Assembly (NCBI RefSeq): GCF_001282725.1
Contig: NZ_LN876587.1
Location: 534,075-598,074, forward strand
DNA: 64,000 nt
Direction: 5' to 3'
Source of the DNA: Inediibacterium massiliense
GTDB lineage: Bacteria > Bacillota > Clostridia > Peptostreptococcales > Thermotaleaceae
Both the position numbers and the translations under genes were made by a program. This document shows positions 7,214-62,560 of this stretch, in pieces (within the stretch, counting starts at the first letter, position 1; each line of letters begins with the position of its first letter). A model generated the notes under the pieces. That model saw only the letters and a program-made list of their open reading frames with translations. It was not told the DNA's origin and made no database searches.

Positions 7214-7830
7214 GGGGGCGTACAGGTCTCGACGGGGGTTTGGAGCCTGCAGTAGCGAGTGGAGGTTTTTCCTTGGGGTCCGCCTTAAAAAACTGGGGAA
7301 TTAAAGATAAACGCAAACGATAATTACGCATTAGCTGCCTAATAGCGCAGCTCGTCCTACCTAAGTTACCCACGGCTTAGACTAGGGCGTCAACCAAGTG
7401 GGGAACTGCCTTGGAGGTGTCTCGATCCAATAGCAGACTAATTGGGACTGGTCAAGAGGTTAGCCTGTCATTGGGCGAATCTTGCGACGAGAAATCAAAA
7501 CAATGACTGCACTCGGAGAATCTGTTTGTGAAGGACTTTCGGACAGGGGTTCGATTCAAAAAGAGTCGCCTTATAGTGTGAACTATAAGTGAAAATCTGG
7601 CTTAATCGGTGAAACCGTAACGTAAAGACGACGGCAATACCGAGGGGTATGTGGAGAAATCCAACAGCTCTGTATCGACTTATAGGCATCCTATAGGATG
7701 TACTAGGATAGAAGTCATAAACTATATTAAGACTTTTATAATACGCCAGAGAAGTTTTAAATATATAACTTCAAGATATAGTCAGCGCCATTGGACAACA
7801 ATGGAATATAGTGTCCCCTCGCCTCCACCA
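7214..7830 (+). ncRNA. ssrA: tmRNA, interrupted by a group I intron
   Basis: The 5' end GGGGGCG pairs over 7 bp with CGCCTCC ahead of ACCA at 7827-7830, forming the acceptor stem. The tag reading frame is at 7313-7342: GCA resume codon, then codons giving ANDNYALAA and TAA. The mature RNA would be about 359 nt, but the gene is 617 nt because the T-loop is interrupted at 7556-7813. After removal of that segment, AGGGG-TTCGATT-CCCCT forms a normal T-arm. tmRNA rescues stalled ribosomes and tags their products for proteolysis. Without splicing the T-arm and acceptor could not form, so charging by alanyl-tRNA synthetase should depend on splicing. Confidence 0.95.
7556..7813 (+). ncRNA. Group I self-splicing intron in the tmRNA T-loop
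   Basis: Removing 258 nt restores a canonical T-arm. The 5' exon ends in U (7555) and the insert ends in G (7813), as group I rules require. P1 can form between exon CGAU (7552-7555) and GUCG (7565-7568), giving the U-G pair at the splice site. The S motif AAGATATAGTC is at 7773-7783 and can pair as P7 with GACU at 7677-7680. A P9-like hairpin CCATTG/CAATGG lies at 7788-7804. There is no internal ORF. Group I introns in tmRNA genes have been reported in other clostridia, as I recall. Exact P3-P8 pairings need a covariance model. Confidence 0.9.
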
Positions 7831-7880: not shown

Positions 7881-8288
7881 TTATATAGAAACAAATCTTT
7901 TATAAAAATCTTCTTTTTGCTCAAGAAGTTCTTGTGAATATTTTCCATTTCTAGGCGTTACTTGTTTGTATTCATAAATAATCATTCTAGCTTTTAATTT
8001 CTTTTCTGGGATAATAAGATAAGGTTCTATTGCTTTTAATAAATAGATGGCATCTTCGTATTTAGCAATATAGGTATAGGAGTCTTTATGTTTTTGAGGA
8101 TTATAATTTTTTTTAGATTTAATATGTCCTACTTTAGATTTTTCTTGAATCCATTGTAATAAATTTAAAGTAGTAGAAGCAATAGTAATGCAGGGAGATG
8201 GAAATTGATTTTTGTGAAATTTAATGAGCATGATACTTCCTTCTCCATCGATAATACCAGCGATATAAGATTTTTCACAGTCCAACAT
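7881..8288 (-). CDS. LAGLIDADG-type homing endonuclease
   Basis: 135 residues with one LAGLIDADG motif near the N-terminus (YIAGIIDGEGSI, residues 8-19), including the catalytic-type acidic residue, so it would act as a homodimer. It ends with a Lys/Glu-rich tail. I start at ATG 8288, with GGAGG about 9 nt upstream; the longer TTG start overlaps that site. The gene is outside the tmRNA intron, 50 bp downstream and on the other strand, so it is free-standing rather than intron-encoded. The likely role, inferred from the neighbourhood, is cleavage of intron-less ssrA alleles to spread the intron. Confidence 0.85.
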   Translation of the reverse strand: MLDCEKSYIAGIIDGEGSIMLIKFHKNQFPSPCITIASTTLNLLQWIQEKSKVGHIKSKKNYNPQKHKDSYTYIAKYEDAIYLLKAIEPYLIIPEKKLKARMIIYEYKQVTPRNGKYSQELLEQKEDFYKRFVSI

Positions 8289-8555
8289 GCAGAAAACCTC
8301 CAAACGTATGTTCTAATATTAGTTTGATATTAATTGATTGAAAATATGTATTAGATTTATAAATATTTAATAGACTTAGTTAAGCTTTTAGTATTAGAAA
8401 AGGGGAATTGTATCATAAGTGACGGCGGTTTTTTGGAAAACAGTTTTAATTGAAATAATAGTTCGAAACTAATATACTATTACTATTAGATAAAAAGTTC
8501 AACATCTTTGGAAGGAGCATAATTTGATGAATATGTTTAAAGAAGACATTAAGTT
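8289..8555. other. Intergenic DNA with a truncated gene start
   Basis: Most of this stretch shows nothing recognisable. At 8527 an ATG with GGAAGGAG upstream begins a frame (MNMFKEDIKF...) that runs straight into the insertion-sequence remnant near 8556 and stops, so it looks like the first codons of a gene destroyed by insertion. A small palindromic AGTTCGAAACT lies at about 8461-8471, in the position of an operator for that lost gene. Confidence 0.45.
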
Positions 8556-8775
8556 TGGACTTATGTCAATAGAATAGACACAGAAAGTTTAACTATTTAT
8601 GCTACTCTCAAAGCAGCTTCATATACTGATTGAGGGGTCATATAATCAATTGAATTTATAGTGTACCAAGATTCAATATATTCAAAGATTGCTCTGCTAG
8701 CTATTTTGAAACCATAATATTTATGATGATGTATTTCTTCTTTCTTTAAAGCATAATGGAAAGATTCAATACATG
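8556..8775 (-). pseudogene. IS3-family transposase C-terminal remnant (first element)
   Basis: Read on the minus strand, this encodes about 58 residues of an IS3/IS150-type OrfB C-terminus: ESFHYALKKEEIHHHKYYGF, then FEYIESWY and DYMTPQSVYE, ending at 8597. The ESF...LK.EE segment is the region around the DDE glutamate; everything N-terminal to it is missing. The sequence from about 8556, CTTATGTCAATAGAATAGACA, resembles an IS3 terminal repeat and abuts the truncated gene start at 8527. The remnant meets a second, oppositely oriented transposase remnant near 8756-8775. Confidence 0.75.
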
Positions 8776-8964
8776 TAAAAATGAACTTATTAAGCAATAT
8801 CGTTTTGATACTGACGAGCTTCTTGATGAAGCTGTTAATGACTATGTTTACGAATGGTATAATTTTTTGAGACCACATACTCATAATCAAGGAAAGACAC
8901 CCTTTGAGGCTAGGTATGGAAATCAAAACTAGCACATAATGTTACATTTTGCTTAACCAGAACA
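8756..8964 (+). pseudogene. IS3-family transposase C-terminal remnant (second element, copy of the IS at 29319)
   Basis: The plus strand encodes MERFNTCKNEL through to FEARYGNQN and a stop at 8932, nearly identical to the OrfB C-terminus of the complete IS at 29319-30575 apart from one lost codon and a few substitutions. The match continues into the right terminal repeat (GTTACATTTTGC...AACA, ending at 8964). The rest of the element is gone. The end lies only about 10 bp before the -35 region of the cobalamin-riboswitch promoter. Confidence 0.85.
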
Positions 8965-8973
8965 ATTGACTTA

Positions 8974-9002
8974 TAGACAAACATATTAGAATCATATATA
9001 AT
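8974..9002 (+). promoter_or_regulatory. Predicted promoter of the cobalamin-riboswitch operon
   Basis: TAGACA and TATAAT are separated by 17 bp, placing transcription start about 20 bp before the riboswitch P1 stem. Confidence 0.6.
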
Positions 9003-9028
9003 TAGGAAATATGAATTGAATATTTATG

Positions 9029-9191
9029 ATACAGGTCCATAAAAGAAGTTTATGGATAATTGGGAAGATAGGTGAAAATCCTGCACGGTCCCGCCGCTGT
9101 AATAGTGGAGCTATTTATGTTTAGCCACTGCCTTAATAAGGTGGGAAGGTATAAATAGTGTTGAAGCTTAAGTCAGAAGACCTGCCTGTAT
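9029..9191 (+). promoter_or_regulatory. Cobalamin (B12) riboswitch
   Basis: P1 is formed by ATACAGG (9029-9035) and CCTGTAT (9185-9191). Between them are the conserved blocks GGTGAAAATCCTGCACGGTC, CCGCCGCTGTAA, GCCACTG, GGGAAGG and the B12 box AAGTCAGAAGACCTGCC, in the right order. Such elements shut off downstream genes when adenosyl- or methyl-cobalamin is abundant. A terminator follows at 9276-9310 and the nitrogenase-like operon begins at 9435. Confidence 0.97.
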
Positions 9192-9275
9192 TAATTTGCT
9201 AATAACTTTACGGATGATAGGGGTTGCAAAATGAAGTGTACTTGTACTATTACTATTATGATTTCATTGTAGATT

Positions 9276-9310
9276 AAAGCCACTTATCTATGAGATAAGG
9301 TGGCTTTTTT
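9276..9310 (+). terminator. Riboswitch expression-platform terminator
   Basis: AAAGCCACTTATCT pairs with AGATAAGGTGGCTTT with one bulged G, followed by six T. It sits 85 nt after the aptamer and 125 nt before the first gene, which fits transcription attenuation under high corrinoid. Confidence 0.85.
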
Positions 9311-9434
9311 GATGTTTTTAAAGAAACATTGAGATAATGTAAGTAAAGATCTATTTTATTTAATTCAGCAAAATACAAGAAGTGGTGATGTTCGTTTTAA
9401 GTTTTGCAAAATAATAAAAGAGAAGGTTGAAATT

Positions 9435-10274
9435 ATGTTAAATAATAAAACATTAAAAATTGCTTTTTACGGAAAAGGAGGAATTGGTAAGTCTACTATA
9501 GCGACTAATCTATCTGCTGCTTTTTCAAAAATTGGATTAAAGGTCTTACATATTGGTTGTGACCCAAAAGGTGATTCTACAAGGAATTTGGCAGGGCAAA
9601 AGATTCCAACAGTGATGGAAGTGATTCAAAAAAAGGGGACAAGCATAGAAGAAAAAAATATTGTGCATTATGGATTTAATAATGTTGCATGCATAGAAGC
9701 AGGTGGACCAAAGGCTGGAATGGGTTGTGCAGGTATGGGGATAACAACGATGACTGAAGAATTACATACACTAGGAATATTGAATAAGTCATGGGATATT
9801 GTTATTTATGATGTGTTAGGTGATGTTGTTTGTGGTGGATTTGCAGTCCCTATGCGTGAAAAATATGTTGATCAAGTATATATTGTATCATCCTCAGAAT
9901 TTATGTCTATATATGCTGCTAATAATATCCTAAAAAGTGTATGTAGGTTTTCAGATAAAGAAAAGAATATTTTTGGTGGACTTATTCATAATCAAAGAAC
10001 AGAGAATTCAAAAGTTCATATAATAGAAAACTTTTCAAAGAATACAAACACTAAAGTTTTGGAGAATATCCCCTACACTAATGAAATTGTTTTATCTGAA
10101 TTAATGGGAAAAACAGTCATAGAAACATTACCTGAATCAAAATCTTACGAAATTTTTATAAGATTAGCTCATGTTATCAAAAACAATAAAAATGTTAATG
10201 TACCAAGTCCTATGGATGATGATGAATTAGAGCGATTTAGAAAAGAAATGTTGCATATGGAGATAAAAAAATGA
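9435..10274 (+). CDS. Nitrogenase-iron-protein-like reductase (NifH-like, group IV type)
   Basis: 279 residues. The P-loop GKGGIGKS is at 13-20 and the switch motif GCDPKGDST at 41-49. The two cysteines that bridge the [4Fe-4S] cluster across the homodimer are both present: C98 (GMGCAGMG) and C133 ([10 protein letters not shown]), 35 residues apart as in NifH. The ADP-ribosylated Arg of nitrogenase (GCAGRG) is replaced by Met. It should be a MgATP-driven electron donor to its partner proteins. It is first in a cobalamin-riboswitch operon, with an ATGA overlap to the next gene. No nifB, nifE or nifN is seen, so N2 fixation is not implied; related systems include CfbC, BchL and MarH. Confidence 0.9.
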
Positions 10275-11077
10275 GTATCAATAATATTTCAAACACAAAT
10301 CATGGTAATGATTTTTTAAGTAAAGTTTTTTATAAAAAAAGCTGTATGGAAATTATTAATTTAGCATTGAGTATTCCTGATATATATGTTTTAGCCATAG
10401 GACCAGAATCATGCTTAAGAGTTCTCTATTTTAGAGCTTTAAGAAAGAAGCAAAATCAAAGGTTATATCTTCAGACGATGAGCCAAAATGACTTAGCATC
10501 ATCTCAGCATTTAGATGTGGCAGAGATGGCACTAAGAGAAATTATAGATCATAATGATCGAAAAGTTAAAGCTGTGATTGTTTATATTTCATGTAGTGAT
10601 ATGCTTATAGGAAGTGACTTTGACAGTATTTTAAAGTCTATACAAAGAAGCCATAGCATTCCAGTGAAACTTTTTAAAAGAGGACCACTTTCTAAAAGGC
10701 GGATAACACCAAAAGAAAGACTAAGTTTGATCTTTACAGAGATATTGGATACTTATCTTGACAATAACATTGATGGAAAAAACATCGAAAATCCCATTAT
10801 TAATATTCTTGGAGAAGAAAAATTAATTGAGCAATGTCAATTAAAAACATTGTTAAAAAATAAAGGATATTTCAAAATTCAGGAATTCATAGCGTGCAAT
10901 TCTTTTAGTGACTTTAAAAATTTAAGCAAAGCAACTTTTAGTATTGTTACTGATAAATTTGGAATCAATCTAGCTAAATATCTAAAAGAGCGTTTCAAAA
11001 TTCCCTACGCTAGTATTTCAATAGAGTGTTCTGAGCAAGAATTTAATAATGCGATTAAAAATAAGGAGGAGAGATAA
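10271..11077 (+). CDS. NifD-like nitrogenase component 1 subunit (short form)
   Basis: 268 residues, well below the roughly 450-500 of NifD. Three cysteines occupy the spacing of the NifD cluster ligands: C25 (KKSCMEI), C48 (GPESCLRV) and C108 ([12 protein letters not shown]). The last matches the CP..LIG.D signature of component-1 proteins. The C-terminal cofactor-binding domain appears much reduced. The start overlaps the NifH-like gene (ATGA) and the stop overlaps the next ATG by one base, so translation of the three genes is probably coupled. I infer it forms a heteromeric catalytic component with the next protein, fed electrons by the NifH-like protein. The substrate is unknown. Confidence 0.8.
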
Positions 11078-12285
11078 TGAATAAAATATGGAACAGTATT
11101 CCTCCTTTAACGAGTGACTATTCTGGTGTTTGTTCAATGCTATTTGAATTAAATTCATTGAATATATTGTATACTCCAAGTGGATGTATTCATCCTATTG
11201 TTGAAGTGGATGAGATTAGAAGTCCTAATGATATGTTTTTTTATAAAACTAATCTGAGCGATATTGATGTCATTATGGGTGTGGAAGATAGATTTTTAAA
11301 AGAAGTTGAATTGCTCGTTACAAATAATCCAAGGGTAGAATTTATTTCAATTATTGGAACACCAGTTTCTAATATTACAAATGTTGATTTTCAAAAAATT
11401 GCTGAAAAGCTTGAGAAAAAAACGAATAAACCTGTAATTGTTTTTGATACGAATGGATTCGAAAGCTATAATATTGGAATTTATGAAGGTTTATTACAGC
11501 TTGCTAAACGATTTTCTAAGGTGGCAGTTACGAATCCAAAACATGTGAATGTGATAGGCTATTCGCCGCTTTCCTTGGGCTATAAATATCATTTAGATGA
11601 GTTGGTGGAATCACTAGAAAACATGGGATTGAAAGTGACATTTTTTGCAGAGCGGTCTTTAAAAAGCATCACAGAGGCAACTAAAGCAGCAATTAATCTT
11701 GTGATAACACCAGAAGGAATGGGTGTTGGTGAATATTTTAAAGAAGAGTTTCAGATTCCTTTTTTAATGGATCTGCCTATAGGATTAAATGGAATATCAA
11801 GAGTATTCAGATTAATTGAAACTCAACTTAATATTGATAGATCTAGAATCGAAGAATCTATAAGCCCAGTATTGGAATTAGCGAATTCTCATAAATATCT
11901 TGATAAAAGTGTTTTAGTGATTGGAGAACCATTGACTTGCATTGGGGTTTACAAATGTTTGAGGGGAGATTTTGGAATCAGCAAAGTGAAAGCAATATCA
12001 AATTTTAATTCTACTAGAAAAGCCAGAAGGATTTACAATGAAGAGTTGTTCTCGCAAGTGATATTTGTAGAAGATGAAGAAAACATAATGAGATATATAA
12101 AGGAAGCTGATATTATCATTGCAGATCCATTATATAGAAATTTTATTAGAGAGGAGGAAAAAAAGCTTTTTATACCGTTCCCTCATATAGGTTTAAGCGG
12201 TAGAGAGTTTACAAGCATGGAATATGAATACATTGGAAAAACTGGATTTGGCTATTTTAAAAAATATCTAAATCCAAGGATTTAA
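11077..12285 (+). CDS. NifK-like nitrogenase component 1 subunit
   Basis: 402 residues of the oxidoreductase/nitrogenase component 1 fold. Cysteines at 19 (YSGVCSM) and 37 (PSGCIHP) match the first two cluster-ligand positions. The third position, expected in the segment SIIGTPVSNI (about 91-100), has no Cys. A Rossmann-like C-terminal half contains VLVIGEPL near residue 280. A cluster shared with the three-Cys NifD-like partner would have five Cys ligands, or an asymmetric cluster. It is third in the operon and 21 bp before the binding-protein gene. Genuine MoFe nitrogenase is excluded by length and missing ligands. Confidence 0.8.
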   Translation: MNKIWNSIPPLTSDYSGVCSMLFELNSLNILYTPSGCIHPIVEVDEIRSPNDMFFYKTNLSDIDVIMGVEDRFLKEVELLVTNNPRVEFISIIGTPVSNITNVDFQKIAEKLEKKTNKPVIVFDTNGFESYNIGIYEGLLQLAKRFSKVAVTNPKHVNVIGYSPLSLGYKYHLDELVESLENMGLKVTFFAERSLKSITEATKAAINLVITPEGMGVGEYFKEEFQIPFLMDLPIGLNGISRVFRLIETQLNIDRSRIEESISPVLELANSHKYLDKSVLVIGEPLTCIGVYKCLRGDFGISKVKAISNFNSTRKARRIYNEELFSQVIFVEDEENIMRYIKEADIIIADPLYRNFIREEEKKLFIPFPHIGLSGREFTSMEYEYIGKTGFGYFKKYLNPRI

Positions 12286-12306
12286 ATAAAAAAGGAGAAA
12301 TGTGAT

Positions 12307-13461
12307 ATGAAAATAAGAAACAGATTTTTGAAAAACCTGTTTGTAATAATTTTGATTGTTACTCTATTTACTTTAGGGGGATGTTCAACAGAACAAAAAA
12401 CAGGAGATGCTGAAACAGCTAATTCGTCAGATCAGAAGGTAGATGACACTGCAAATACAAATACTAACAACAATGAAGAAAAAGTAACAATAACAGATAC
12501 TACTGGTAAAGAAGTTAAATTGAAAAAAAATGTAGAAAAAATTGCGGTTGTGCCAATTCCATGGACATCTATTGTATACGCTGTAGATGGGTCTGGTGAT
12601 AGAATTGTCGGGATGCATCCTACAGCAAAAACATCTTACGAAAAGTGTATTTTAAAGACTATGGAACCTAAATTAAGTAATGCCTCTACTGATTTTGTGG
12701 GTAAAGACTTTACAATTCACATGGAAGAAAGCGGAAAACTCAAATTAGATGCTATGATTGTATGGGATTATCAGGAAAAAGAAATTGAACAATTAAAAGG
12801 CTTGGGTATTCCAGCAGTGTCTTTAAAATATGGTACTTTAGAAGATTTACAAAATGGAATGAAAGTCATCGGTAAAATGCTTGGAAAAGAAGATAAGGCG
12901 ACAAAGTTAGTTGATTATCATAAAGAAAGCATAGAATATTTTAATTCAAAAAAGAATCAAATTGAAGGTACTAAAAAACCAAGAGTCCTATATTTAAGGG
13001 ATGAGCAACTTAAAGTAGCTGGTGGTGGAGCTGTTAATACAATTCTTATTGAGATGGCTGGTGGAGAAAACGTAGCAAAAGAAGTAACTGGTCAATGGGT
13101 AAATGTGACTATGGAACAAATAATGGCGTGGAATCCGGAAGTCATTGTTATGAGCAATTTTTCTAATTTCCAACCAGAAGATTTATTGAACAATAAAATT
13201 GAAGGACAAGATTGGAGTAAGGTTGATGCAGTAAAAAATAAGAAAGTGTTGAAAGCACCTATGGGAATATATCGATGGGATGCGCCTTGTGCTGAAACAC
13301 CTCTTATGACAAAATGGATCGCTAAGCAATTACAACCAGAAGTGTTTAATGATTTCGATTTAGAAAGTGATATCAAAAGTTTTTATAATAAGTATTTAAA
13401 CTATGACTTATCTCAAGAAGAAATGGATTCAATTCTACAAAAAGAATTAAATGGTAAATAA
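12307..13461 (+). CDS. Cobalamin/siderophore/heme-type ABC transporter substrate-binding lipoprotein
   Basis: 384 residues with a lipoprotein signal peptide: positive n-region, hydrophobic core, and lipobox LGGC with C26 as the lipidated residue, then an Asn/Thr-rich linker. The rest is a class III (BtuF/FepB-type) binding protein, with ITDTTGKEVKL at the domain start and a Gly/Trp-containing second lobe. It should sit on the outer face of the membrane and deliver a metal chelate to the following permease. The ligand is not readable from sequence; the B12 riboswitch and reductase genes make a corrinoid or other tetrapyrrole a reasonable guess. A strong AAAGGAG site precedes the ATG. Confidence 0.88.
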   Translation: MKIRNRFLKNLFVIILIVTLFTLGGCSTEQKTGDAETANSSDQKVDDTANTNTNNNEEKVTITDTTGKEVKLKKNVEKIAVVPIPWTSIVYAVDGSGDRIVGMHPTAKTSYEKCILKTMEPKLSNASTDFVGKDFTIHMEESGKLKLDAMIVWDYQEKEIEQLKGLGIPAVSLKYGTLEDLQNGMKVIGKMLGKEDKATKLVDYHKESIEYFNSKKNQIEGTKKPRVLYLRDEQLKVAGGGAVNTILIEMAGGENVAKEVTGQWVNVTMEQIMAWNPEVIVMSNFSNFQPEDLLNNKIEGQDWSKVDAVKNKKVLKAPMGIYRWDAPCAETPLMTKWIAKQLQPEVFNDFDLESDIKSFYNKYLNYDLSQEEMDSILQKELNGK

Positions 13462-13467
13462 AAGGAA

Positions 13468-14502
13468 ATGATTAAATTGGATATTTTTAAGGGAAATAAT
13501 ACTACAAAATGGATTTTTATGGGCATTGCAATAATTATAACATTTTTTGTATCACTGTTTTTAGGGAGATATATTATCCCTCCAAAAACAGTATTAAATG
13601 TACTTATTAACAGTATGTTTAATATAAACATGAATACCTTTGAAATGGAATCATCCATTGTTATTGGAATTAGACTACCAAGGACTATTTTAAGTATGCT
13701 AATTGGGGCAGCTTTAGCGGTTTCAGGGGCTACATATCAAGGGTTATTTAGAAATCCTCTTGTTAGTCCAGATGTATTAGGAGTAAGTAGCGGTGCAGGA
13801 TTCGGAGCGGTTTTAGGAATTCTTTTATCGGGTATTTCTAGTACTACTTCGTTATATGCTTTTGGACTTGGAATTATCAGTGTTTTTATAACATATTTTT
13901 TCGCTAAAGCAAGAAAAGAAATTTCAATGATGTCTTTAGTTCTATCTGGTATGATTGTTTCATCAATATTTTCTGCGTTGATTTCATTAGTTAAGTATAT
14001 TGCTGATCCATATGATAAATTACCAGCTATAACGTATTGGCTGATGGGAAGCTTCTCAAAAGCTACCTTTGAAGATCTAAAACTAGTTGTTATTCCTATG
14101 ATATTGGGAATTACAGTGTTGAATCTTTTAAGATGGAGAATAAATATTTTATCTTTGGGTGATGAAGAATCCTTATCGATGGGAATAAATCCAGTGAAAA
14201 TAAGAATTGTAGCAATTGTGATGTCAACTGTACTAACAGCAGCATCAGTTACAGTTGTAGGAATTGTAGGATGGGTTGGTTTAGTTATTCCTCATATCAG
14301 TAGATTGCTTGTAGGCGTCGATCATAAAGATTTAATCCCTGCATCATGTATACTTGGAGCAATATTTTTGACAAGTGTTGATATTATAGCAAGGTCAGCG
14401 TCTAGTGTTGAGATACCAATAGGAATTATTACAGCCTTATTAGGAGCGCCATTTTTTGCATTCTTATTAAAACGTGTTAGAAAATCAAGAGGGGAATTAT
14501 AA
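13468..14502 (+). CDS. FecCD/BtuC-family ABC transporter permease
   Basis: 344 residues with about ten membrane helices. Family signatures include RLPRTILSMLIGAALAVSGA, TYQGLFRNPLVSPDVLGVSSGAG, and the coupling segment GDEESLSMGINP; the C-terminal part has GWVGLVIPHISR. It forms the homodimeric membrane channel of a type II importer. It lies 6 bp after the binding-protein gene and overlaps the ATPase gene by one base. Confidence 0.93.
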   Translation: MIKLDIFKGNNTTKWIFMGIAIIITFFVSLFLGRYIIPPKTVLNVLINSMFNINMNTFEMESSIVIGIRLPRTILSMLIGAALAVSGATYQGLFRNPLVSPDVLGVSSGAGFGAVLGILLSGISSTTSLYAFGLGIISVFITYFFAKARKEISMMSLVLSGMIVSSIFSALISLVKYIADPYDKLPAITYWLMGSFSKATFEDLKLVVIPMILGITVLNLLRWRINILSLGDEESLSMGINPVKIRIVAIVMSTVLTAASVTVVGIVGWVGLVIPHISRLLVGVDHKDLIPASCILGAIFLTSVDIIARSASSVEIPIGIITALLGAPFFAFLLKRVRKSRGEL

Positions 14503-15269
14503 TGATGGTAGAGTTAAAGAATTGTTATTATAGATACCCAGGTAAAAATATGCTTTTAGCAAACATTTCATTCTCATTAAATAAAAGTGAAATAATGACT
14601 ATCTTGGGACAAAATGGTACAGGAAAAACTACCATGTTGAAGTGTTTAACCGGCATATTAAAATGGGAAAGAGGACAGACTTTTATTAACGGTAAAAATA
14701 TTAGCTTTAGGTCGAACATCAATGAGATTGGATATGTACCGCAGGCTCATAATTTACCTTTTCCCTATACTGTAAGTGAAATGATAGCTATGGGAAGAGC
14801 TAAGCATATTGGCTTATTTTCTATGCCTTCTAAAGAAGATAAGATGAAAGTAGAAGAAACTATTGAAGAGATTGGAATACAACATATAAAAAATAGTCCA
14901 TGCACAGAGTTAAGTGGAGGACAGTTACAGCTGGTGTATATTGCAAGAGCTTTAGTAGCAAATCCAAAGGTCTTGATACTTGATGAACCAGAATCACACT
15001 TGGATTTTAAAAATCAACTAATGATATTGAAACTTGTAAAAAGATTGACGAAAGAAAAAGATTTGGCTTGTATAATAAATACTCATTATCCAGAACATGC
15101 TTTGAAAATTTCAGATAAAACGCTATTTTTAGGTACTAGCGAATATATTGTTGGAAATACAAAACAAATCATTACAGAAAAGAATATAAAAAGATTTTTT
15201 GATATTGATGCTAAAATTGTTTCGTTTATGCATGGAAATAAAAATTTAAAAACTATTGTAGCTATCTAA
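14502..15269 (+). CDS. ABC transporter ATP-binding protein (FepC/BtuD type)
   Basis: 255 residues: Walker A GQNGTGKTT near 37-45, Q-loop in YVPQAHNLPF, signature LSGGQLQLVYIARAL, Walker B VLILDEPESHLD, and a switch His in INTHYPEHA. This completes an importer with the two preceding genes. The 1-bp overlap with the permease indicates coupled translation. It ends the cobalamin-riboswitch operon. Confidence 0.93.
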   Translation: MMVELKNCYYRYPGKNMLLANISFSLNKSEIMTILGQNGTGKTTMLKCLTGILKWERGQTFINGKNISFRSNINEIGYVPQAHNLPFPYTVSEMIAMGRAKHIGLFSMPSKEDKMKVEETIEEIGIQHIKNSPCTELSGGQLQLVYIARALVANPKVLILDEPESHLDFKNQLMILKLVKRLTKEKDLACIINTHYPEHALKISDKTLFLGTSEYIVGNTKQIITEKNIKRFFDIDAKIVSFMHGNKNLKTIVAI

Positions 15270-47908: not shown

Positions 47909-48067
47909 GGATCATATTATAATTTGTATTTGGCTTTTATCATAGAAACATTTTTATAATTATATAATGCAATGCGAATAGTTTTTGGAAATGAAGAAAG
48001 CACATCTTATATTAAAAAATAATTGATAAAAATTTATTTTAGTAATATAATAAATGAAGAATATGAG

Positions 48068-48152
48068 AATAGGTGATGGAGTTCGCCTTTAAATGCATTA
48101 ATGCTGATGACTCCTACAAGTAATATATTTTTATTGCTTGTAGGAGTTTTTT
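48068..48152 (+). promoter_or_regulatory. Fluoride riboswitch (crcB motif) with terminator
   Basis: AATAGGTGATGGAGTTCGCC followed by AAATGC...GCTGATGACTCCTAC is the crcB/fluoride aptamer, closely matching Bacillus examples as I remember them. The 3' end ACTCCTACAAG (48110-48120) pairs with CTTGTAGGAGT (48137-48147), followed by TTTTT, as an overlapping terminator. Fluoride binding favours read-through into the antiporter gene. Confidence 0.95.
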
Positions 48153-62236: not shown

Positions 62237-62355
62237 CTCTTATCAAGAGAGGTGGAGGGACTGGCCCAATGAAGCCCAGCAACAACTTAGACTATAAGAG
62301 ATCTAAGAAATGTGCTAAATCCTGCAGAATGTGATTTCATTCTGATAGATAAGAG
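62237..62355 (+). promoter_or_regulatory. SAM-I (S-box) riboswitch, first of a tandem pair
   Basis: P1 is CTCTTATC / GATAAGAG. Inside are AAGAGAGGTGGAGGGACTGG, CCCAATGAAGCCCAGCAAC, TGTGCTAAATCCTGCAG and TGATAGATAAG, the S-box core in order. The 3' strand AAGAGGA (62351-62357) can instead pair with TCCTCTT (62377-62383) as antiterminator. Confidence 0.97.
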
Positions 62356-62373
62356 GAGGAAGTATATATATTG

Positions 62374-62404
62374 AGTCCTCTTCTGATATCAGAAGAGGAC
62401 TTTT
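62374..62404 (+). terminator. Terminator of SAM riboswitch 1
   Basis: AGTCCTCTTCTGAT and its complement ATCAGAAGAGGACT form a perfect stem followed by TTTTG. Confidence 0.9.
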
Positions 62405-62442
62405 GTTGTTGATGCATCGACAAAATAAATTAAATAATAAAA

Positions 62443-62560
62443 TTCTTATCAAGAGAGGCGGAGGGACTGGCCCAATGAAGCCCAGCAACAACTTAGATTG
62501 TAAGAAATCTAAGAAATGTGCTAAATCCTGCAGAATGTGTTTCATTCTGATAGATAAGAA
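62443..62560 (+). promoter_or_regulatory. SAM-I (S-box) riboswitch, second of a tandem pair
   Basis: P1 is TTCTTATC / GATAAGAA. The core is nearly identical to the first copy (GAGGCGGAGGGACTGG, CCCAATGAAGCCCAGCAAC, TGTGCTAAATCCTGCAG), with changes mostly in helix tips. ATAAGAAAG (62554-62562) can pair with CTTTCTTAT (62578-62586) as antiterminator. Confidence 0.97.

Follow-up and report, generated by a model that had tools for sequence, protein, structure and literature searches.

A cobalamin riboswitch-linked operon of Inediibacterium massiliense pairs a nitrogenase-like reductase with an eroded D subunit and an ABC-type importer

Results

We analysed a stretch of 64,000 nucleotides of Inediibacterium massiliense DNA (contig NZ_LN876587.1, positions 534,075 to 598,074, forward strand), referred to here as the window, with attention to one operon that is headed by a cobalamin (B12) riboswitch and encodes a nitrogenase-like (Nfl) reductase followed by an importer of the ATP-binding cassette (ABC) type. 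The head of the operon consists of a cobalamin aptamer and an intrinsic terminator, after which come six close-set genes on the same strand. The aptamer (9016-9203, +) matched the Rfam model RF00174 over all 189 model positions with 117.2 bits (E 9.6e-29) against a gathering score of 31.5 and, being full-length with an expression platform downstream, belongs to that family. The terminator (9276-9310, +) is made up of a hairpin at 9276-9307 and a U run; the hairpin folds at -15.1 kcal/mol (z -4.3), and none of 200 shuffled sequences was as stable. An ungapped terminator scan of the window did not list this hairpin because its stem is bulged. Hairpin and U run together likely form the expression platform of an OFF switch. 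A promoter-like site, TAGACA-17-TATAAT, precedes the aptamer (8974-9002, +; pattern scan, 11/12 matches) and is suggestive by position alone, since 29 such sites were counted across the 64-kb window compared with 38.8 in shuffles.

Three reductase genes lead the operon: nflH (9435-10274, +), encoding a NifH-like ATP-dependent reductase of 279 aa (Fer4_NifH, 288 bits), nflD (10271-11077, +), encoding an eroded NifD/BchN-like subunit of 268 aa (Oxidored_nitro, 53 bits), and nflK (11077-12285, +), encoding a NifK/BchB-like subunit of 402 aa (Oxidored_nitro, 118 bits). The importer follows, with genes for a substrate-binding lipoprotein (12307-13461, +; 384 aa; Peripla_BP_2, 80 bits), a permease (13468-14502, +; 344 aa; FecCD, 303 bits) and an ATPase (14502-15269, +; 255 aa; ABC_tran, 113 bits). 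All six Pfam assignments exceeded the gathering scores. Overlaps of 4 bp (nflH/nflD) and 1 bp (nflD/nflK and permease/ATPase) join most of the genes; the gaps are 21 bp from nflK to the lipoprotein gene and 6 bp from there to the permease gene. A preliminary description of this DNA had reported a B12 aptamer and terminator ahead of NifH-, NifD- and NifK-like genes with overlapping ends and an importer 21 bp further on, and the Rfam, folding and Pfam results together with the open reading frame coordinates confirm that arrangement.

By these matches (PF00142 for NflH, PF00148 for NflD and NflK) the reductase belongs to the nitrogenase superfamily, and the NflH translation carries the P-loop GKGGIGKST and both cluster-Cys motifs. 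Assignment to a characterised enzyme was another matter, as none of the three proteins reached the cut-off of an NCBIfam equivalog for Nif, Bch or Cfb. NflH scored 318 against a cut-off of 402 for CfbC (its top score), 317 against 394 for NifH and 225 against 345 for BchL. For NflK the values were 63 against 490 for BchB (its best), 29 against 420 for BchN and 17 against 268 for CfbD, and for NflD they were 36 against 505 for NifE (its best), 32 against 490 for BchB and 13 against 420 for BchN. The NCBIfam output held no model for the methylthio-alkane reductase MarHDK, which was therefore judged by ligand pattern and trees. NflK gave weak PDB matches to BchB and nitrogenase chains. NflD lacks the C-terminal part, with 268-272 aa compared with ~410-470 aa in most relatives; the reductase had been called minimal beforehand, and the term proves truer than was claimed.

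Conserved residues were read from an alignment of 54 NflD and 54 NflK sequences, 11 from the window clade described below and 43 others. The rows of L079, L074, L072, L090 and Sporomusa (K in a different branch) were left out, as was one cluster each of L071 and L093, for which a single component-1 gene had been called. Six residues were invariant in 54/54 rows: D Cys48 (codon 10412-10414, +), D Cys108 (10592-10594, +), K Cys37 (11185-11187, +), K Asp14 (11116-11118, +), K Asp45 and K Asp350. No third conserved Cys occurred in D across the 54 rows, the third NifK Cys position was Pro in 52 of the 54 K rows, and K Cys19, present in 31/54, was not kept across the clade. D Cys48 and D Cys108 coincide with two NifD cluster Cys, K Cys37 coincides with a NifK cluster Cys and with an Asp of BchB, and K Asp14 lies one column past a NifK Cys; we take the NifD positions to be its second and third cluster Cys, while in NifK the column of K Cys37 would be the second Cys and the neighbour of K Asp14 the first, and the BchB Asp would be its cluster ligand. 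Since D Cys48, D Cys108, K Cys37 and an Asp are invariant, D and K probably hold one [4Fe-4S] site on three Cys and one Asp, with no ligands for a P-cluster or cofactor. We infer that K Asp14 is probably the fourth ligand. Passages of Dos Santos et al. (2012; PMC3464626) describe one nfl clade with two D Cys and one K Cys and suggest a non-Cys fourth ligand as in protochlorophyllide reductase (DPOR). Within the window clade D also carries its own motif, F-[KR]-R-G-P-[LM]-x-K-R, in which Arg137, Lys142 and Arg143 are present in 11/11 sequences; it is speculation that this basic patch could face a carboxylate-rich substrate.

The operon recurs in other genomes. An NflK protein scan of genome contigs found one relative, in Clostridium simiarum (locus L015), 70% identical, where a cobalamin riboswitch precedes the same six genes in unchanged order. 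Wider searches covered 297 genomes of the same order (79 matched at E 0.001), 391 of the class (67 at 1e-12), 197 of the G203 family (50 at 1e-12), 67 of the G663 order (16 at 1e-30) and 58 of the G320 order (1 at 1e-30), to a total of 1014 with own-genome searches counted and with overlapping samples; loci were retrieved for the best matches and chosen others rather than for every match. Eleven loci make up the window clade, each with NflH, a shortened or fused D, K, binding protein, permease and ATPase. RF00174 lies directly upstream of nflH in 11/11 of them by Rfam, with aptamer scores of 117 bits in the window, 116 in L015, 72 in L061 (G203), 65 in L114 (G579), 68 in L121 (G663), 69 in L154 (G790), 68 in L155 (G809), 63 in L156 (G791), 62 in L157 (G803), 67 in L158 (G810; partial, model positions 49-166) and 69 in L159 (G811). 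A hairpin and U run between aptamer and nflH were also found in L121 and L114, the loci folded being these two and the window, and the full importer is present in 11/11. D measures 272 aa in L015 and 169 aa in L061 and is fused to the front of K in eight loci (526-535 aa together), whereas most non-clade clusters have a D of 410-470 aa, apart from a few in which it was called longer or fused. The 11 loci correspond to about five lineages, and the count overstates their independence because a single family, through two of its genera, supplies eight of them. The package recurs in several groups of Clostridia.

As controls we used 48 H-containing nitrogenase-like clusters outside the clade, of which 45 were scanned with Rfam and 2, the further clusters of I. 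massiliense itself, by the genome-wide RF00174 search, L105 being unscanned. No cobalamin riboswitch lay directly upstream of any of the 47, and none lay anywhere in the Rfam-scanned loci of the 45. A few could be missed, since the contig breaks off close to nflH in some control loci. One of the I. massiliense clusters, at C12:176-180 kb, lies ~10 kb past a same-strand riboswitch at C12:166467. The 11/11 linkage rejects the idea that riboswitch and reductase are adjacent by chance, and the conserved reductase-riboswitch-importer link strengthens the original observation. Outside the riboswitch count, plasmid searches with NflH and NflK yielded reference sequences and two more clusters with importer genes, in Treponema and Sporomusa.

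Two further features of the clade loci may be recorded. A LysR-type regulator gene is divergent from the riboswitch-nflH operon in 9/11 (L061, L114, L121 and L154-L159; by Pfam for L061 and L114, the rest by eye), and none was seen at that position in the window or L015. Additionally, the operon is followed by genes for an FmdE-family protein (Pfam in L114, by eye in L157) and another binding protein at L114:4172-6724 and L157:10554-13317, the latter locus also having a second permease.

The clade label was set by shortened D, search order and riboswitch, and was fixed before tree building. In a quick NflH tree the clade lay on one side of a branch with support of 98. NflK gave support of 95 in a quick tree with references and of 100/99 in a careful tree without references and long rows, and the binding protein gave 100/100 in a careful tree. 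NflH and NflK of the clade stood apart from the references, which were single rows of BchL/B, NifH/K and a Mar-type sequence (Chlorohelix, judged by its neighbours), with no CfbCD or Isr row; because of these single rows and of long branches it is uncertain where the clade attaches deep in the trees. The permease tree differed in that the clade was not one group there (3 changes, at least 2 forced). The clade permeases and most other nfl-linked permeases formed a 32-row group with support of 100, which shuts out the three other riboswitch-linked FecCD permeases of the I. massiliense genome; five nfl-linked permeases fell outside it (two of the C12 cluster, and those of Sporomusa, L072 and L090). 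The importer therefore goes with the reductase family and not with the cell's other B12-regulated importers.

The binding protein of L015 is 76% identical to that of the window. In three remote clade loci the corresponding values are 46, 42 and 44%, against 30, 29 and 24% for NflK, so that by sequence identity the receptor is kept more tightly than the enzyme across the clade. This suggests one substrate throughout. A profile built from six binding-protein sequences (five of the clade and one from genome G029, described below) matched the PDB entry 4ovk best, at 469 bits, the table naming no function for 4ovk. The corrinoid importer BtuFCD was rejected as an identity by its NCBIfam cut-offs (235 against 461 and 207 against 334 for two BtuC models, 44 against 234 for BtuF).

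A genome-wide RF00174 search found 18 cobalamin riboswitches in I. massiliense. The inspected operons linked to them include those of CbiMNQO, CobT and corrin synthesis, as identified by eye, and of other FecBCD-type importers. Among these, L083 (C14:259.5-265 kb) combines FecCD and ATPase genes with a lipoprotein-like CbiK chelatase (Pfam) and an SLH-bearing binding protein, and in L080 (C13:307-317 kb) a NEAT heme-binding protein stands ahead of another importer. In L082 (C10:186-193 kb) the riboswitch is followed by a 1546-aa protein with a CobN/Mg-chelatase domain by Pfam and an apparent signal peptide, which adjoins an ExbB-like channel protein. Further riboswitch-linked genes encode two methyltransferases with transporter genes and SLH/DUF4430 surface proteins. 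The genome holds two further nitrogenase-like clusters outside the window. One closes the stretch C12:92-181 kb (L075-L079), where seven cobalamin riboswitches lie within ~75 kb among very large secreted-looking proteins, some with SLH/DUF4430; at its end come a fused NflH-NflD (739 aa), NflK and then an importer of the energy-coupling factor type (S component by Pfam, the rest by eye). It is suggestive that one genome has two unrelated kinds of importer beside nitrogenase-like enzymes near B12 riboswitches.

A link to a cobalamin gene was seen in genome G029, where a second copy of CbiL (precorrin-2 C20-methyltransferase; 190.7 bits, cut-off 163.25) lies 53 bp before nflH, a substrate-binding protein gene, nflD and nflK; the other CbiL copy (225.8 bits) is on a different contig. 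The binding protein of this cluster is 45% identical to that of the window and is among the nearest relatives of the clade binding proteins, with weak support (89/75); its grouping with them is not rejected (p-AU 0.27) and not shown.

Discussion

The results describe a recurrent operon in which a nitrogenase-like reductase and an importer stand under one cobalamin riboswitch. Superfamily members of known function serve in nitrogen fixation, in chlorophyll and F430 synthesis or in C-S bond cleavage, and the window reductase was compared with each. A nitrogenase (Nif/Anf/Vnf) is rejected, as Cys are conserved solely at D48, D108 and K37, the C-terminal part of D is absent, the NifH cut-off is missed and the trees keep the proteins apart. 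DPOR (BchLNB) resembles the window enzyme in having two components and, as expected here too, a single [4Fe-4S] site on three Cys and an Asp, and BchB is the best NCBIfam match of NflK. The ligands of DPOR are three N-Cys and one B-Asp, however, whereas here they would be two D-Cys, one K-Cys and probably K Asp14, with K carrying Cys at a position that is Asp in the BchB row; moreover, the window D is eroded, no chlorophyll genes lie beside the operon and the BchB score is far below its cut-off. DPOR is rejected by the BchL, BchN and BchB cut-offs, the ligand pattern and the trees. The Ni-sirohydrochlorin a,c-diamide reductase CfbCD shares with the window enzyme the top-scoring NflH model and a simple [4Fe-4S] chemistry, but its D is homodimeric without K, whereas the window operon has two different catalytic subunits, a riboswitch and an importer; the CfbC and CfbD cut-offs, the separate D and K genes and the ligand pattern reject it. 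MarHDK provides the best PDB match of NflH (9fmg_D, 233 bits, the Fe protein of the methylthio-alkane reductase complex) and is rejected because its set of six P-cluster Cys is absent here and NflH and NflK lie apart from the Mar-type reference. No radical-SAM protein comparable to isrB of the isethionate reductase IsrHDK occurs among the six operon proteins by Pfam, and the trees held no Isr sequence. Within these comparisons the reductase fell in no characterised clade, by the NCBIfam cut-offs and by H and K trees that held BchL/B, NifH/K and Mar rows and no CfbCD or Isr row.

Passages of Dos Santos et al. (2012; PMC3464626) already note, for Firmicutes and methanogens, that nitrogenase-like genes can neighbour ABC transporter genes, and for that general idea the earlier label of an undescribed system was too strong. 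The operon belongs with those clusters, having nflHDK beside importer genes, two D-Cys and one K-Cys, and nfl genes next to an importer recurred in many of the loci retrieved here. It departs from them in that the clusters of this type that we sampled mostly have a D of ~410-470 aa and no riboswitch directly upstream, whereas in the window clade D is eroded or fused and a riboswitch is present in 11/11. The word riboswitch is absent from the main text of PMC3464626. Across titles, abstract openings and chosen passages, a search outside which most subscription papers lie, we found no report linking nitrogenase-like genes with a cobalamin riboswitch, no report of an eroded D subunit in nfl clusters and no assigned function for the large clostridial nfl branch beside ABC importers. 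Within that search, what appears new is the riboswitch control and the eroded D; the nfl genes with their importer were already known.

From these sequence comparisons we propose, as a tentative reading given slightly less than an even chance, that the operon is a B12-repressed import-and-reduce system, whose ATP-driven reductase would use an imported tetrapyrrole or cobalt complex as substrate under B12 scarcity. Transcription would stop at the terminator while B12 is bound and would read through into the genes when B12 runs short. The importer would then bring in a bulky substrate, and NflH would hydrolyse ATP and feed electrons to a single [4Fe-4S] cluster shared by the two subunits, with Cys48 and Cys108 of the mini-D and Cys37 and probably Asp14 of K as ligands, in a manner close to that of protochlorophyllide reductase. 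From the cluster, electrons would enter the substrate directly. The substrate would sit chiefly against K, where loss of the C-terminal region of D leaves the protein open, and no FeMo-type cofactor would be used. We guess this substrate to be a corrinoid, or else a related tetrapyrrole of cobalt or another metal, that needs reduction before joining the cell's corrinoid pool; a tetrapyrrole or corrinoid is the first choice, with roughly even chances of being right. Passages of PMC12552129 and PMC7242693 describe DPOR and CfbCD as enzymes with [4Fe-4S] clusters only and with tetrapyrrole binding sites, which reduce tetrapyrrole double bonds. The choice of a tetrapyrrole rests on these [4Fe-4S]-only relatives, together with the riboswitch-linked corrin genes, the CbiL cluster of G029 and the fused NflH-NflD enzyme that stands near B12 riboswitches in the I. 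massiliense genome.

Several observations weigh against this proposal. The best PDB match of the permease is HI1471 (251 bits), followed by FhuB (198), HmuU (178), another hemin permease and only then BtuC (154), and the binding-protein profile likewise scored HI1472 (131 bits) above BtuF (54 bits). The other sampled nfl-linked members of the 32-row permease group are without B12 control, which makes it less likely that B12 is the importer's cargo. CbiL scored above its cut-off in all ten clade genomes searched and in G029, C. simiarum being left out; this is consistent with de novo corrin synthesis and leaves no evident need for corrin salvage. The link to CbiL is a single locus, as a scan of the earlier-retrieved nitrogenase-like loci with the cobalamin genes of I. 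massiliense found no second case, and the G029 NflK is not of the window clade. NflH has its best PDB match in the Mar Fe protein. AlphaFold models, built from the window and L015 sequences only, were poor (pLDDT 57 for D and 49 for K), and the pocket was not inspectable. The D model gave Foldseek matches to nitrogenase and DPOR chains over ~150 residues at a query-length TM of ~0.3-0.4, with unrelated top matches, and was not used as evidence. The preliminary description had likewise proposed import and reduction under B12 scarcity. Neither of the two outcomes that it named as refuting, placement in a characterised clade and absence of a conserved link in other genomes, was seen within these comparisons. 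As a fair reading that part stands, whereas its proposed substrate (a corrinoid, heme or metal chelate) is tentative, given a permease nearer MolB than BtuC, importer relatives that are not B12-controlled and the presence of corrin-synthesis genes; its interpretation is in this sense partly supported.

Other readings draw on the same importer results. Like MolBCA and BtuFCD, the window importer has a FecCD-type permease, a PF01497 binding protein and an ABC ATPase, but its permease is nearer HI1471 than BtuC and groups with other nfl-linked importers. One such reading is cobalt or other metal scavenging, in which the importer would take up an inert chelate, for example of Co(III) or Fe(III), and the reductase would free the metal by ATP-driven reduction. 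B12 control would fit, because a cobalt shortage is felt as a B12 shortage. The nearness of the permease to HI1471, FhuB and HmuU rather than BtuC agrees with it, as do profile matches of the binding protein to 4ls3 and 4ino, labelled nickel and iron binding, and riboswitch-linked operons that include CbiMNQO cobalt uptake (by eye) and chelatases. We consider it unlikely all the same: release of metal from a chelate presumably has no need, normally, of such reducing power, the other sampled nfl-linked importer relatives are not B12-controlled, and the CbiL of the G029 cluster points to a macrocycle.

Supply of a metal or cofactor precursor, as suggested by Dos Santos et al. (2012), would couple Mo or W import to cofactor building on a NifEN-like DK scaffold. 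The best NCBIfam match of NflD is indeed NifE, though at 36 bits, HI1471 is the nearest solved permease and HI1472 is among the nearest solved relatives of the binding protein. We take HI1471 to be MolB, and HI1471/HI1472 to be a molybdate/tungstate importer. A scaffold role is hard to reconcile, however, with a D of just 169 aa in G203, with D-K fusions at eight loci and with only three conserved Cys across D and K, and it leaves the B12 control unexplained; we regard it as quite unlikely. The control itself would be explained by a B12-independent bypass, in which the enzyme replaces a B12-dependent one, for example by freeing methylthiol for methionine as Mar does. B12 riboswitches do control B12-independent isozymes such as metE, according to the abstract of PMC11260477, and the best PDB match of NflH fits a Mar-like role. 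But passages of PMC12552129 describe Mar as having an [Fe8S9C] cluster besides a P-cluster bound by six Cys, and the six-Cys set is absent here; NflH and NflK lie apart from the Mar-type reference, and in our judgement a FecBCD-type importer is ill-suited to small organosulfur compounds. The bypass thus appears very improbable.

The import-and-reduce proposal has a bolder form, which we hold possible but somewhat doubtful: the first nitrogenase-like enzyme dedicated to corrinoid metabolism, ATP-driven, with D worn down to a cluster-holding domain, its own importer and direct riboswitch control. If this were true, much of one nitrogenase catalytic subunit would be dispensable while the electron relay survives. 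Apart from this, the eroded or fused D offers naturally occurring variants in which to ask how small a nitrogenase-type catalytic unit can be and still work. The riboswitch also names the metabolite expected to silence one sub-branch of the clostridial nfl enzymes beside ABC importers.

The retrieved loci also contained nfl clusters with other neighbours. Clusters with HypF/HypD/HypE-like genes (some HydE/HydF-like), often with two HDK sets adjoining, were seen by eye in L065, L070, L071, L091-L093, L104, L107, L111 and L120; an association of nfl with Hyp-like genes is noted in passages of Dos Santos et al. (2012; PMC3464626). In L054, L067, L102 and L172 nfl clusters adjoin a recurring module that comprises an ABC-type ATPase, an SBP_bac_6 protein and a GTPase resembling HypB/CobW (Pfam for L102, the others by eye). 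The nfl clusters of L160 and L161 have extra importer genes and a protein of 254-287 aa, which we take to resemble DUF364 (heavy-metal chelation).

Within the window, a short frame at ~8756-8932 (+), like an IS3-type transposase end by eye, lies just ahead of the promoter-like site, and an open reading frame at 7881-8303 (-) with a LAGLIDADG-like motif, also judged by eye, lies just past the tmRNA (7222-7558). Elsewhere the window holds a fluoride riboswitch at 48063-48123 and two tandem SAM riboswitches at 62237-62560.

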